Part shown: positions 2,710 through 28,650 of the stretch, in pieces
Position numbering within the stretch: the first letter of the stretch is position 1
Layout of the letters: the number at the start of each line of letters is the position of its first letter
Assembly (NCBI GenBank): GCA_020161395.1
Contig: JAIUOE010000003.1
Coordinates: 248,001-312,000 of the forward strand
Origin: Bacteroidota bacterium
GTDB lineage: Bacteria; Bacteroidota; Ignavibacteria; Ignavibacteriales; Ignavibacteriaceae
DNA: 64,000 nucleotides
Reading direction: 5' to 3'
The notes under the pieces: generated by a model
Databases searched by the model: none
Seen by the model: only the letters and a program-made list of their open reading frames with translations
What the model was told of the DNA's origin: nothing
Program-made: the position numbers and the translations under genes

Positions 2710-3055
2710 ACCTGCCTGGGCAGGTGACATGTTCGTAGAAAACCACCCATCCCCTGTCTGTTCAATTCGCCTGGGCGAGTGACATGTTCGTAGAAAACCA
2801 GCCATTCCCCTTCTGTTCAATTCGCCTGGGCGAGTGACATGTTCGTAGAAAACCACCCATCCCCTTTCTGATCAACTCGCCTGGGCGAGTGACATGTTCG
2901 TAGAAAACCAGCCATTCCCCTTCTGTTCAACTCGCCTGGGCGAGTGACATGTTCGTAGAAAACCAGCCATCCCATGTCTGTTCAACTCGCTTGGGCGAGT
3001 GACATGTTCGTAGAAAACCCCCCATCCCATGTCTGTTCAACTCGCCTGGGCGAGT
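2710..3055 (+). repeat. 55-bp tandem repeat array with covarying hairpins
   Basis: The word GACATGTTCGTAG occurs at 2726, 2781, 2836, 2891, 2946 and 3001, an exact 55-bp period over six units. Units are separated by seven 16-base hairpins (starting at 2710, 2765, 2820, 2875, 2930, 2985 and 3040). Most read ACTCGC-CTGG-GCGAGT. The first reads ACCTGC-CTGG-GCAGGT, with two compensatory base-pair changes. Two carry ATTCGC opposite GCGAGT, which pairs through a U-G wobble only in a plus-strand RNA. The first 19 bases of each unit after the hairpin are essentially invariant; the remainder varies slightly. Since 55 is not a multiple of three it does not encode a protein repeat, and it lacks the unique spacers of a CRISPR array. 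It may be a structured RNA or a palindromic repeat element; its function is unknown. Confidence 0.9.
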
Positions 3056-3060
3056 TTTTA
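3040..3060 (+). terminator. Terminator-like last hairpin of the 55-bp array
   Basis: The seventh hairpin, ACTCGC-CTGG-GCGAGT, is the only one followed by a T run (TTTTTA). It could end a plus-strand transcript of the array. Confidence 0.45.
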
Positions 3061-3299
3061 GGTTGAGATGTCAGGTTCTATTTGTAGTCATAACATAAGG
3101 TTTGTCGGTTGGACAATCGAGACGATTGTCGCTCCTTTTCAGAAGAATAAAATTTCGGATTTCGAATTTTACATCCTCGAAATCCGTGTTTAATCCGTTT
3201 CATCCGTGTTCCAATTCCCCTCTCTGCGAAACTCCGTCTAATCTGCGGGTATCTGCGTCCAATCCAATTAATAACTCAAAACTAATAACTAATAAATAA
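3061..3299. repeat. Intergenic AATCCGTG/CTGCGT repeat and AT-rich tail
   Basis: No gene is visible here. From about 3176 the sequence is a degenerate copy of a repeat built from short words such as AATCCGTGTT, ATCCGTGTTCC and TATCTGCGTCC, also found at 9.05-9.15 kb, 10.77-11.06 kb and inside the gene at 38.9-39.03 kb. It ends with an AT-rich tract of ACTAATAACT-like words that overlaps the 3' end of the neighbouring minus-strand gene; a similar tract follows dsbD at 36.93 kb. Bases 3061-3175 show nothing I can name. Confidence 0.6.
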
Positions 3300-3978
3300 C
3301 CACTCTTCCATCCGCCATTTCGATGAGGTTGTCGCCGATAGCCATGAGGTCTTTATTGTGCGTGACGATTACGAAGGTTTTTCCGAATTCATCTCTGAGC
3401 TTGAGGAACAGGTCATTTATTGCGTTCGCGTTGTTGGAATCGAGGTTTCCGGTGGGCTCATCGGCGAGAATGACTTTTGGATCGTTGCTCAGAGCTCTTG
3501 CGAGGGCTGCCCTCTGCTGTTCGCCGCCCGACATTTCTGCCGGTTTGTGGTTTTTTCGCGATTCTAGACCTGTAATGGAAATGAGTTGAAGAGCTTTTTC
3601 GAAGGCTTCCTTCTTCCCTTTTCCGGCAATCAACATTGGAATCGCAACATTTTCAAGTGCAGTAAACTCGGGTAACAGGTGATGAAACTGAAAAACAAAT
3701 CCTATGTTTTCGTTCCTGAATTTCGAGAGCTTCTTCTGACTCAACGAAAAAATATCCGTCCCCATTATGTTCACGCTTCCGGCATCGGGTTTATCAAGTC
3801 CGCTGATAATATGGAGCAGTGTGCTTTTTCCCGCACCTGAAGCACCAACGATTACGGAAATTTTGTTCTCCGGAATCGAAATGTCAACACCTTTCAAAAC
3901 TTCAAGTGTGTTTTGTTTTGAGACTCTGTAGGACTTCACAAGTCCGCTGCCGTTAATTATTTTGTTCATACTGTTCAA
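3289..3978 (-). CDS. lolD: LolD-like lipoprotein-releasing ABC transporter ATPase
   Basis: The 229-residue cytoplasmic ATPase has the full ABC signature: Walker A GASGAGKST, Q-loop FQFHHLLPEF, ABC motif MSGGEQQR, Walker B VILADEPTGNLD and the switch histidine in VTHN. Length and the PTGNLD form fit the MacB/LolD subfamily, which drives extraction of lipoproteins or other substrates from the inner membrane. Two FtsX-type permease genes lie directly upstream on the same strand, so it probably powers a LolCDE-like complex delivering lipoproteins toward the outer membrane. A gap of 69 bases separates it from the nearer permease. The specific Lol substrate is inferred from context; a MacB-type exporter is the main alternative. 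Confidence 0.85.
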   Translation of the reverse strand: MNSMNKIINGSGLVKSYRVSKQNTLEVLKGVDISIPENKISVIVGASGAGKSTLLHIISGLDKPDAGSVNIMGTDIFSLSQKKLSKFRNENIGFVFQFHHLLPEFTALENVAIPMLIAGKGKKEAFEKALQLISITGLESRKNHKPAEMSGGEQQRAALARALSNDPKVILADEPTGNLDSNNANAINDLFLKLRDEFGKTFVIVTHNKDLMAIGDNLIEMADGRVVIY

Positions 3979-4047: not shown

Positions 4048-5283
4048 TCACTCCCACCTTATTGCATCAATCGGATCAATTTCTGCTGCTTTTTTAGCGG
4101 GATATATGGAAGCCAGAAGTGACAGCCCGATTGAAGCTGACAAAATGAGGAAATAATCAATTAAATTGAGCTCCATCGGCATGTATGCCATTTTGAAACG
4201 CAACGGATCGAGAGCAATTATATGATAGTTGATTTGCAGGTAGTAAAGTCCAAATCCAATGAGCCCGCCTGCAAGCGTACCAATCACACCGGTAAGAAAA
4301 CCCTGAATGACAAAAATTCGTATAATCGTCGATTTGTCCATTCCCATGGCAGTCAAGACACCGATATCCCTCTTTTTCTCCATTACCGACATGGTAAGAG
4401 ATGCAAGAATATTAAACACTGCAACCAGAATAATCAGCGACAACAGAAACCAGGCAACAAGTCTTTCCAGCATCATCACATTGTAAATATCGCTGTGGAG
4501 GTCGTACCATGTGGAAAAAACCAGATCCTTTGTGCCGAACTTTTCACTCAGAATCTCCTTTAGCCCGTCGGCTTTTCTGTAGTCATCAAACCTGATTTCA
4601 TATCCCTGTACTTCCTCACCGTAACCGAGGACAAACCCGGCGTGCTCAAGATCGGTAAAAATATATTCTCCATCATACTCGTTGTTTTTCGACTGGTAAA
4701 TGCCTCTCACAATCAACTGAATATTCTGGACATTCCCCGCACCTGAAACAAGGTTCTCGATACCTGCAGGTGATAAAACTGTAAGAGTATCACCAATTCC
4801 CAAACCTAATTTTTCCGAAAGATTTATTCCGATAAATGCAGCACCTGACTCGCCTGAAAAATTATACTCTCCCGACCAAAGTGCCTCTTTTATCCCGTAA
4901 ACATCTTTCCCTTTTCCCGGATCAATTCCTTTTAGCCTGGCAATTCTGTTGTAATCCTTAGAAATTACTGCGGTCTTCCCTTCTACAAATCCGGAAAAGC
5001 TGTCTTTGTAGGGACTTTGTTCGATGTAGCGCTTTACAGAATCGAGTGATGCTCCCGGGTCCTCAGCTATTGACTCAATACGGAGATGAGGCTCAAAGCT
5101 TACCAGGAATGACCGTACCATCCCGGCAAATCCGTTGAAAATTGCAAGCACTATGATTAAAGCCGCAACACCGAGCGTAATTCCGCCAATCGACAGGAAT
5201 GAAATGATCGAAATAAAATTGATATGTCGCTTGCTCAGAAGGTATCGCAAAGCAAAGAAAAGTGACAGTGATCCTGTTTTCAA
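4048..5283 (-). CDS. LolC/LolE-family ABC transporter permease (second of two)
   Basis: The 411-residue membrane protein has the LolC/E layout: one N-terminal membrane helix (about residues 20-50), a large periplasmic domain (about 50-270), then three C-terminal helices forming the FtsX domain. It includes the coupling-like sequence KKRDIGVLTAMGMDKSTI and ends in AKKAAEIDPIDAIRWE, both typical of the family. Its ATG overlaps the stop of the upstream permease by 4 bases, so the two are translationally coupled. Together with the LolD-like ATPase they should form a heterodimeric transporter for outer-membrane lipoproteins. The two permeases are diverged, consistent with LolC and LolE roles, but I cannot assign which is which. 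Confidence 0.85.
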   Translation of the reverse strand: MKTGSLSLFFALRYLLSKRHINFISIISFLSIGGITLGVAALIIVLAIFNGFAGMVRSFLVSFEPHLRIESIAEDPGASLDSVKRYIEQSPYKDSFSGFVEGKTAVISKDYNRIARLKGIDPGKGKDVYGIKEALWSGEYNFSGESGAAFIGINLSEKLGLGIGDTLTVLSPAGIENLVSGAGNVQNIQLIVRGIYQSKNNEYDGEYIFTDLEHAGFVLGYGEEVQGYEIRFDDYRKADGLKEILSEKFGTKDLVFSTWYDLHSDIYNVMMLERLVAWFLLSLIILVAVFNILASLTMSVMEKKRDIGVLTAMGMDKSTIIRIFVIQGFLTGVIGTLAGGLIGFGLYYLQINYHIIALDPLRFKMAYMPMELNLIDYFLILSASIGLSLLASIYPAKKAAEIDPIDAIRWE

Positions 5284-6509
5284 TTGAACCTCAAAGCTTT
5301 CACAGGATCAATCCTTGATGCAGCAAATGCGGGAATGAGAGACGACAGGATGCTTAGCCCAACCGAAACTCCAAAGACGGTCAGAAAATATGTGCCGTTT
5401 ATCGATATCGGTACTTTATCGACAAAATAAATCGTCGGATTCAGTTGCACAAGTCCAAATTCCATCTGAATATAACAGAGGATGTAACCAAATATTACGC
5501 CGGCTATTGCACCTCCAATTCCAAGGAGCAGACCTCTGACAAGGAATATCCTCGTAATAAATCCGGGTGAGGCTCCGATTGCTTTCAGTGTACCGATGGT
5601 GTTCGTCTTGTCGAGAACAAGCATCAAAAGTGCACTGATTATGTTAAATGCCGCAACCACAATAATCAGACCCAGCACAATCGGAATCGGTTTCCGCTGC
5701 AATTCTATCCAGTTGAACATTTGCCTGTTGGCATCAACAAAAGTGACAGCGAAAAACGGATGCCCCAGCGCCTGTTGCAGTTCATTTTTCAAAGAATCTG
5801 CAGGTATCCCCCGCTTCAACTTCACTTCAATCAGATTGATCTTGTCGTCCATCTCATACAATCTTTGCAACTGTGAAATGGCTGTATAAGCAAAAGCATC
5901 GTCATACTTCCCCATTCCGGTCTGATAGATTCCCGAAACAAAGAAATTTTCAACAGCAGGAAGTGCAGTCATACTCTTTAGATCTACAGCATTGATTGCG
6001 AAGAAATTTACAACATCACCCGGTTTTACCCTGAGTTTTGTCGCGAGAGTCTTTCCGATTACCACCCGGTTCAGTGAATCGTCATCAAGCCCCAAATCGA
6101 AACTGCCGGCTACCAGCTTTAATCCTTCTCTCTTCTCGAGGTAACCGTCGGTTATCCCCTTCAGAGTGACACCTTCATTTATTCTGCTTTTCCCCAGAAT
6201 ACATATTTTCTGTGCACCGAATTCTATCGATTGAAGACCGGAACCGGTTATCGTTCTAATTGTTTTTTCTGCCTTTTCCGGCTCGGGTAAATCCTGATTG
6301 CCATATCCGTAAACCTGTATGTCGGAATCGAAAGTAACAAGTTTTTCGCTGATCACTTTCTCATATCCTTCAAGCACACTCAAGGCAACAACGAGTGTTG
6401 TCACACCAAGGGCAATACCGGCAAGTGCAGCCAGCGAGAAAAATGTATAGGTCTTCGACTTGTTGCCGGGCTTCAGATACCTTTTAAGCAGAAATAATGA
6501 GGCACTCAA
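5280..6509 (-). CDS. LolC/LolE-family ABC transporter permease (first of two)
   Basis: This 409-residue protein shares the layout of its downstream partner: an N-terminal helix after FLLKRYLKPG, a periplasmic domain, and a C-terminal FtsX domain with the cytoplasmic loop KTNTIGTLKAIGASPGFI and the tail SRIDPVKALRFN. The start codon lies one base after the end of the upstream TPR gene, and its own end overlaps the next permease by 4 bases, so all belong to one minus-strand operon. The role is the membrane part of an inner-membrane ABC exporter, most likely LolCDE-like. No residue looks missing. Confidence 0.85.
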   Translation of the reverse strand: MSASLFLLKRYLKPGNKSKTYTFFSLAALAGIALGVTTLVVALSVLEGYEKVISEKLVTFDSDIQVYGYGNQDLPEPEKAEKTIRTITGSGLQSIEFGAQKICILGKSRINEGVTLKGITDGYLEKREGLKLVAGSFDLGLDDDSLNRVVIGKTLATKLRVKPGDVVNFFAINAVDLKSMTALPAVENFFVSGIYQTGMGKYDDAFAYTAISQLQRLYEMDDKINLIEVKLKRGIPADSLKNELQQALGHPFFAVTFVDANRQMFNWIELQRKPIPIVLGLIIVVAAFNIISALLMLVLDKTNTIGTLKAIGASPGFITRIFLVRGLLLGIGGAIAGVIFGYILCYIQMEFGLVQLNPTIYFVDKVPISINGTYFLTVFGVSVGLSILSSLIPAFAASRIDPVKALRFN

Positions 6510-6510
6510 G

Positions 6511-7932
6511 TTATTTTCCTGAAGCTCTGCAAAGAAATTTCAGTATGTCGAGTTCAAAACTGTCCGAAGTTGCTGTCTTGTTTACAGGTTTGGATGAACC
6601 CGGTTTCGACACATCCTTTCCTGTTGGATCAAATTTCTTTTCGAAATTTTGAACAAAATCGTTTTTCCCGCAGACGATAGTCCAGTTATACTCGTTCTGT
6701 CCATACATACTCTTTAATACCTTGTCGATATTGTCGGGAGCGGTCTGATCAAACTCTGACTGGAAAACATTCAACATGTTCAAGTCGACATCCGCTGTCA
6801 CAACTGATTTGATAGTGGCTGTGATGCTTGAATCGGCGTTGGTCTTAAGTTCATTGGGTGAATAAAAGAAATATTCATTTCCGTGTTTGATAAACTGTGC
6901 ATCCTTCACGACAGGCATCCACCCGCTTTTTGCCATCTCGTTCAGAATTGTCATCTTTTTCAACAGTTCAATCAGTTTTTTGTTCTTTTTGTACTTATAT
7001 GCCTCCGCATAAAAATTCAGCGACTCCTCGTACGACTTGGAATTGAACTTGAGGTGCCCCTTCTCCATCTTCGTATTGTAAATGATATTCGCTATGTACT
7101 GGATGGAATCTTTCGGAGCATCTTTCCTCTTCATCAAGCCATCATAAGTGACCGTCATCATCGAATCGATTCTGTTCACAACAGTAAACCCCTTGTCGTA
7201 GTCACCTGCATCAAAATACATCCCGTAAAGTTCGCTCAAAGCGTTGATGTTTTTCGGATCCACTTCCAAAACCTTGTTGAAGTGGTGCACGGAACTGTCG
7301 AGAATCCCGACGAATTTATAAATTTGCGCCAGCCCGAAATGGGAAATGGTGTAATATTTGTTTTCCTTGTCAGGTCCGATTGCATCAAGACACAACTGGA
7401 AGTATTTTTTCCCGTTTGCGGCATCATTTATCATCATCGATACCCTGCCGACATCGTTGTAAATGTTTACTTTCGAAAAGTCAAAATCATTCCATCTGAA
7501 AACGGGTACTTCGAGGTAATCAAGCGATTCAAGATAATACTTAATCGCCTCGGAGAAGTGCTTCTTTATCTTGTTTGTGTCTTTTGTATCGGGCGGGACA
7601 AACTCTTTTACCATCCCCTTGTAGTAGGTCAGGATGGCTTTCATGTTCGATTTTCCCTCTTTGAACAACTTAAGTCCCTGATCCAGATTCATATTTGCAC
7701 TTCTTTCATCTTTTGCATAAATGAAAGTAATCGCAATTTTTATGTAAACTTCAGGGTCGTTTTTCTCCAGATTGAGAGCTTCAAGATATTTCATGCGGGC
7801 ATTCAATACATCGGGCGGGCGTTTGTTCAGCAACTTATCCCCCTCCAAAAGCAGTTCCTTATACCCGTTTTGAGCCATTAAACCGAATTGAAGCAAAATT
7901 AAACACAACAGGCCACTTAAAAGTCGCGACAT
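6511..7932 (-). CDS. Exported TPR-repeat protein in the lol operon
   Basis: The 473-residue product has a signal peptide (about residues 1-20, ending in LMAQ) and a long helical region with TPR-like repeats, for example DPEVYIKIAITFIYAKDE and DPKNINALSELYGMYFDAGD. It should be periplasmic or outer-membrane associated. The start is supported by GAGGAAATA just before the ATG. It ends one base before the first LolC/E-like permease gene, so it is first in a four-gene operon with the transporter. The context suggests a role in envelope biogenesis, but no domain gives a specific activity. The C-terminal part from about residue 400 is low in recognisable motifs and rich in K, S and T. Confidence 0.7.
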   Translation of the reverse strand: MSRLLSGLLCLILLQFGLMAQNGYKELLLEGDKLLNKRPPDVLNARMKYLEALNLEKNDPEVYIKIAITFIYAKDERSANMNLDQGLKLFKEGKSNMKAILTYYKGMVKEFVPPDTKDTNKIKKHFSEAIKYYLESLDYLEVPVFRWNDFDFSKVNIYNDVGRVSMMINDAANGKKYFQLCLDAIGPDKENKYYTISHFGLAQIYKFVGILDSSVHHFNKVLEVDPKNINALSELYGMYFDAGDYDKGFTVVNRIDSMMTVTYDGLMKRKDAPKDSIQYIANIIYNTKMEKGHLKFNSKSYEESLNFYAEAYKYKKNKKLIELLKKMTILNEMAKSGWMPVVKDAQFIKHGNEYFFYSPNELKTNADSSITATIKSVVTADVDLNMLNVFQSEFDQTAPDNIDKVLKSMYGQNEYNWTIVCGKNDFVQNFEKKFDPTGKDVSKPGSSKPVNKTATSDSFELDILKFLCRASGK

Positions 7933-19804: not shown

Positions 19805-19880
19805 AATGCAGTAATCCAATAATGCAGTAATCCAATAATGCAGTAATCCAATAATGCAGTAATCCAATAATGCAGTAATA
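19805..19880. repeat. 16-bp tandem array (AATGCAGTAATCCAAT)
   Basis: Four to five units of AATGCAGTAATCCAAT follow korB directly. The reverse-complement family (GCATTATT/GGATTATT) forms another array at 28651-28719. It lies between the stop codon and the terminator, so it should be transcribed into the korAB 3' end. Confidence 0.9.
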
Positions 19881-28517: not shown

Positions 28518-28637
28518 TCTGATGTTTGAAGTTTGAAGTTTGAAGTCTGATGTTTGATGTTTGATGTTTGATGTTTGATGTTTGATGTTTGAAGTCTGAT
28601 GTTTGAAGTTTGAAATTTGATGTTTGATGTTTGATGT
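28518..28637. repeat. Heptamer array (TTTGATG/TTTGAAG)
   Basis: About 17 consecutive 7-bp units, mostly TTTGATG, TTTGAAG and TCTGATG, form an uninterrupted tract. The same family, on the other strand, occurs at 37560-37622 and 58950-59026. Confidence 0.92.
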
Positions 28638-28650
28638 TGGAAAATCCGCC

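Follow-up and report, generated by a model that had tools for sequence, protein, structure and literature searches.

The hairpin array at positions 2710-3055 of the window, the whole 64,000-nt stretch of Ignavibacteriaceae DNA analysed here, appears to be a run of REP-like elements stacked head to tail, each consisting of a hairpin, a 9-nt spacer and a GTAG tag, that are linked to a Y1 transposase of TnpA-Y1 subclass 1.2; judging from the sequence, we give this reading a probability of roughly 0.7. The array lies on the plus strand and was examined by a hairpin scan, Tandem Repeats Finder and symmetric hairpin scoring. It contains seven 16-nt hairpins (2710-2725, 2765-2780, 2820-2835, 2875-2890, 2930-2945, 2985-3000 and 3040-3055) separated by six exact 55-bp steps, as the first-pass annotation had stated, and Tandem Repeats Finder reports period 55, 6.2 copies, 92% matches and a score of 561. 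In each unit the variable hairpin is followed by the 9-nt spacer and GTAG: GACATGTTCGTAGAAAACC stands directly 3' of hairpins 1-6 and is absent after hairpin 7, which continues into TTTTTAGG. The first element (2710-2738) comprises hairpin 2710-2725 and the spacer and tag GACATGTTCGTAG at 2726-2738. It is followed by a 55-nt module running from one GTAG end to the next (2739-2793; linker, hairpin, spacer, tag) and four further such modules reaching 3013, all with putative boundaries, and by the last linker and hairpin (3014-3055) without spacer or tag. Two compensatory base-pair changes separate copy 1 (ACCTGCCTGGGCAGGT) from ACTCGCCTGGGCGAGT, copies 2 and 3 carry a T-G pair in place of C-G, the U-G pairs of the first-pass annotation, and copy 6 has T instead of C as its seventh base; both the compensatory changes and the U-G pairs had thus been described correctly. 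A CRISPR array was provisionally set aside, the window linkers being near-identical rather than unique. Other tandem repeats of the window lie at 19805-19879 (16-bp unit, 4.7 copies, 100% matches) and 28520-28638 (7-bp unit, 17 copies).

The unit is not confined to the window. The array has matches at 16 further places in the source genome; among 58 relatives, only one, G003 of the same genus, matched. With one mismatch allowed, the core CATRTTYGTAGAAA has 52 matches in the source genome (22 exact) compared with 12 for the reversed pattern. An exact scan for the window core in a genome-contig collection, which may omit records near the source genome, returned 0 matches. Across 18 sources (the window and 17 other stretches of the same genome), the tag is nearly constant and the stem is variable, with ACTCGC/GCGAGT, ACACGC/GCGTGT, TCCCTC/GAGGGA and ACCCC/GGGGT among the types seen. 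Neighbouring units less than 100 nt apart are spaced by 50-59 nt in 43 of 44 cases, also where the two hairpins are of different types. Five loci in L052 share a first hairpin with a similar leader and continue into differing blocks that each end in GTAG, and these block types recur in other orders at related loci; part of this block shuffling may stem from recombination between tags, for which the transposase is not required. Eleven of 66 sites in the genome fall inside ORFs, possibly spurious ones, of 110 aa or more. L056 has two copies of ATTTCAATCCCTCATAGGTTCGATTTAAGAC spaced by about 67 bp (around 6431-6570, within 140 bp), which resemble a CRISPR repeat.

Three Y1_Tnp genes are encoded in the source genome. 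The first (L054, 4964-5419) encodes a 151-aa Y1 (IS200-like) transposase and is flanked mirror-wise on both sides by units consisting of a hairpin and TTATATGTTCGTAG. These flanking units have the ATGTTCGTAG core of the window array and a different stem type; the window's own type (CTCGCC/ACACGC) was not found beside any transposase gene, and the link is the shared core. The first-pass annotation had recognised no described element with this unit, a view that its dispersal and its inverted placement around a Y1 transposase gene do not support. The second gene (L055, 6502-6951) encodes a 149-aa Y1 protein and lies between hairpins that carry a GGGTAG variant of the tag; a dispersed GACATATGGGTAG set is found in the genome alongside this GGGTAG type. 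The L054 and L055 transposases are 50% identical, score above the NCBIfam IS200 cut-off (NF033573) and not above that of NF047646, and by motifs and length carry the WQ and Y--Q--HH signature of TnpA-Y1 subclass 1.2. Sequence matches of the Y1 protein to IS608 TnpA structures reach E 2.7e-05. The third gene (L053) is a class-2 RAYT above the NF047646 cut-off, flanked on both sides by inverted copies of the palindrome GACAATCG-loop-CGATTGTC (L053 6268, 6319, 6884, 6935). A single copy of this dispersed palindrome is present in the window at 3112-3130, outside the array and with no strand assigned, and that stretch has many matches in G003; the window junction would thus hold repeats of two Y1 systems. 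Partial 18-bp units of the AGGGTTATATGTTCGTAG type, which have no hairpin, are repeated beside the L054 transposase gene at 4910-4946 and 5498-5516.

Of 296 genomes sampled from the phylum, 143 have matches to the L054 protein, the source genome counted. The 110 related loci compared here are the best 80 of 247 relative-encoding stretches together with 30 from the 296-genome search; all are best matches, they are partly redundant, and many come from metagenome bins, with titles that include Bacteroidota, Verrucomicrobia, Poribacteria, Ignavibacteria and others. Unguided comparison of each upstream flank with the mirrored downstream flank gave 23 loci a score higher than the best among 150 cross-locus pairs (21). 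The tag NNNATNNNN[AG]TAG, sought within 130 nt with pairing ignored, is present at 108 of 217 gene sides, whereas distant blocks have it in 18 of 204 cases and the opposite strand in 14 of 217, and a perfect 5-bp stem stands directly before it at 95 of 133 tag sites, where shuffles predict 0.26. Among 113 unique 26-mers from the related loci, the top three mutual-information column pairs are the stem pairs, and paired changes keep the stems, so the hairpins do covary as proposed at first pass. Hairpin and tag were found jointly upstream of 62 of 108 genes, downstream of 56 of 109 and on both sides of 36 of 107. The corresponding counts were 4/100, 9/104 and 1/94 for distant blocks and 8/108, 12/109 and 3/107 for the opposite strand, with 4.6, 4.5 and 0.05 in shuffles. 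Tags flanking one gene agree with each other (mean distance 1.82 vs 4.48 permuted in 33 loci; minimum over 2000 permutations 3.30), and the distance between tags rises with that between proteins (Mantel r 0.667 in 63 loci; maximum over 2000 permutations 0.157), a correlation that could come from shared descent alone. The subclass 1.2 motifs Y---Q--HH and WQ are found in 108 and 110 of the 110 proteins, respectively, and DH[VI]H in 79, while the Y..NP motif of class-2 RAYTs is found in none of them.

At the level of individual genomes, the ATCAATAG form is present in 10 of 11 carrier genomes with 0 control matches, and 52 of its matches lie in a single genome, G348, reached via the Pinibacter aurantiacus locus L133. 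In G348, elements tagged in this way often occur as oppositely oriented pairs about 40-90 nt apart, whereas the arrays of the source genome are direct. The looser 12-base pattern ATNTTTGTAGAA has 90 matches compared with 18 control matches in the ten genomes of the Verrucomicrobia loci (G327-G336) and little or no excess in the other five genomes (G337, 16 vs 12; G338, 8 vs 4; G339, 5 vs 2; G000, 3 vs 5; G003, 2 vs 2). A specificity sample of 60 loci, in 16 of which the script found no ORF, yielded the RTAG element at 2 of 18 further subclass-1.2 genes, one of the 18 being L055 of the source genome, whose GGGTAG variant falls outside the RTAG pattern. It was found at 0 of 20 class-2 genes, 0 of 4 class-1.1 genes and 0 of 2 RAYT-model matches typed 1.1 by pattern. 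With 2 of 18, the RTAG form therefore characterises the clade around the L054 protein rather than subclass 1.2 as a whole. When shared inverted flanks were scored with no motif preset, the 95% value of the null (12) was exceeded at 12 of 20 subclass-1.2 and 16 of 24 class-2 loci, at none of the 4 class-1.1 loci and at both RAYT-model matches typed 1.1. The more distant subclass-1.2 genes L220 and L202 have other inverted hairpin motifs, in L220 a hairpin followed by GACTGTGCATAACC.

The congener G003 allows the array to be compared between two species. Twenty-four flank pieces from 12 clusters were searched in G003 and 11 regions compared, none for L066, with both flanks anchored for L054, L057, L058, L059 and L064 only; intergenic DNA has diverged, and the comparison reads presence or absence rather than exact empty sites or junctions. 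At the corresponding gene junction, G003 lacks the window array, and units of the ACACGC/CTCGCC type are also missing there at L059, L063 and L065. For L056 and L060, whose G003 stretches are anchored on one side only, none were seen. L057 has 3 units in both species and L064 has 4 in the source genome compared with 7 in G003. A simple tandem repeat, expanded through slippage and unequal recombination and resembling the transposase flanks by ancestry only, with no transposase acting now, would account for this difference at L064 and for the near-identical linkers of the window array. It is the strongest of the alternatives and still an unlikely one: the unit is dispersed, mixed arrays keep the same spacing with different hairpins and linkers, and the L054 transposase locus is conserved in both species (95% identity), with differing unit numbers.

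The array lies between two convergent ORFs, both read by eye, a CXXCH-rich ORF ending at 2598 and an ORF at 3289-3978 with ABC-ATPase motifs. It had been described as directly following a porin-cytochrome operon. The CXXCH-rich ORF does end upstream of it, but a terminator-like hairpin of that operon at 2622-2651 on the plus strand, outside the array, comes in between, and inspection by eye shows a similar structure at the corresponding position in three congeners (G001-G003). The cytochrome operon thus has a terminator of its own before the array is reached, and this neighbourhood looks incidental. A consensus scan marked the last hairpin (3039-3056) as terminator-like on the plus strand, with TTTTT 3' of it, in keeping with the terminator-like T run noted at first pass, and the first hairpin (2710-2725) as terminator-like on the minus strand. 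CTAAAAA precedes the first hairpin and TTTTTAG follows the last, a terminator-like arrangement pointing outward at both ends. Whatever its origin, the array could now mainly serve as a bidirectional terminator between the convergent genes. Such a role is improbable given the operon's own upstream terminator, which the congeners have too, the absence of a T run from the inner units and the placement of only 7 of 20 clusters of the source genome between convergent genes.

The units might also be miniature remnants of an ordinary IS200/IS605 insertion sequence. Like IS608, the system described here has a Y1 HUH transposase with a sequence match to IS608 TnpA, hairpins near the gene ends and a protein above the NCBIfam IS200 cut-off. 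However, the flanking hairpins are inverted copies of one type rather than the two different same-strand ends of such insertion sequences (layout in part after PMC6006769), and the two transposases of the genome, at 50% identity, are not multiplied copies of one gene. An origin of this kind is very unlikely.

The first-pass annotation held that the hairpins pair only as plus-strand RNA and suggested selection on such an RNA. The claim about pairing was too strong. Scoring that was not symmetric favoured G-T pairs by its design (11 vs 0), and the analysis was repeated with symmetric scoring, which gave 12 G-T and 10 A-C pairs among 30 unique hairpins of 72 sites from the 18 sources; once chance or misregistered sites were set aside by eye, the counts were 6 and 2, no strong asymmetry. 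G-T pairs are tolerated in single-stranded DNA as well. A scan of the window region against Rfam 15 returned no family at its gathering score, the best match being Gut-1 (RF01706) at 24.6 and 19.2 bits compared with a gathering score of 50 (2758-2845 and 2868-2955). The Gut-1 model consists of two hairpins in tandem, with GUGAAAU after each, and thereby resembles two array units, which nevertheless reach about half of the gathering score. Gut-1 was not found at threshold in the 296 genomes under strict filters (15 first-look candidates scored per genome in the 20 genomes listed), nor was any family, Gut-1 included, in 12 related loci. Gut-1 might itself be an element of the same kind as the array, an idea to which the genome and related-locus scans gave no support. 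A structured plus-strand RNA, regulatory or small, is the least probable reading: the compensatory changes, the G-T pairs and the sub-threshold likeness to Gut-1 speak for it, and the mirror-image units around transposase genes, the mixed orientation to genes (5' neighbour on the same strand in 12 of 20 clusters by crude ORF calling, with no consistent sense orientation), the absence of an Rfam family at threshold and the lack of the array in G003 speak against it. We consider the evidence for action as RNA weak and read the array as REP-like elements that would be acted on as single-stranded DNA. The mobile palindromic repeat that the first-pass annotation had offered as its alternative fits the dispersal, the transposase flanks and the mixed orientation better.

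Mobilisation of these REP-like elements by the transposase is proposed by analogy with work on IS608 and TnpAREP, as far as described in the available text of PMC8266576. There, TnpAREP of E. coli and others binds and cuts the single-stranded repeat, and the tag lies 5' of the hairpin. The Ignavibacteriaceae transposase would bind the hairpin on exposed single-stranded DNA and cut at or near the RTAG tag. A unit of about 55 nt would then be joined to the 3' side of a second RTAG, which would place each new unit behind those already present, and recombination between units may afterwards alter copy number. The system shares with GTAG REP/RAYT pairs (REPtrons) short, dispersed, GTAG-tagged palindromes, a Y1 gene flanked by inverted copies and, in the source genome, a separate repeat type for each transposase. 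It differs in that the tag stands 9 nt 3' of the hairpin, whereas canonical REPs carry GT[AG]G at the 5' foot of the hairpin or 1-2 nt away, in that relatives carry RTAG rather than strict GTAG, and in that the protein is of the Y--Q--HH type rather than the NP type (Y..NP, NF047646) of class-2 RAYTs. In the available text on GTAG REPs (PMC3733652), few head-to-tail pairs are described.

The two transposases agree with TnpA-Y1 subclass 1.2 in length (151 and 149 aa compared with about 148), WQ, Y--Q--HH and low copy number. In the available text of Quentin et al. 2018 (PMC6006769), the Y--Q--HH signature defines this subclass, which has no REP in that listing and generally lacks terminal hairpins; in contrast, one clade examined here has hairpin-tag elements. 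The automatic REP search described there sought a 5' GT[AG]G foot, and we infer that it would miss a tag on the 3' side. A search by title and abstract opening, covering openly accessible journal articles, returned no paper tying subclass 1.2 to such repeats. We tentatively hypothesize, at slightly less than even odds, that these elements form a distinct class of mobile DNA of about 55 nt that subclass-1.2 Y1 transposases move in trans, that uses its own RTAG as target, stacks head-to-tail and is present in several phyla, and that was overlooked since its tag and the canonical REP tag lie on opposite sides of the hairpin. The layout of the repeat departs from that of canonical REPs, and covarying hairpins in arrays need not be RNA. 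The family is a candidate substrate for a transposase branch that had been described as having no such repeats, and the gain of single units at a tag could be sought in its direct arrays.
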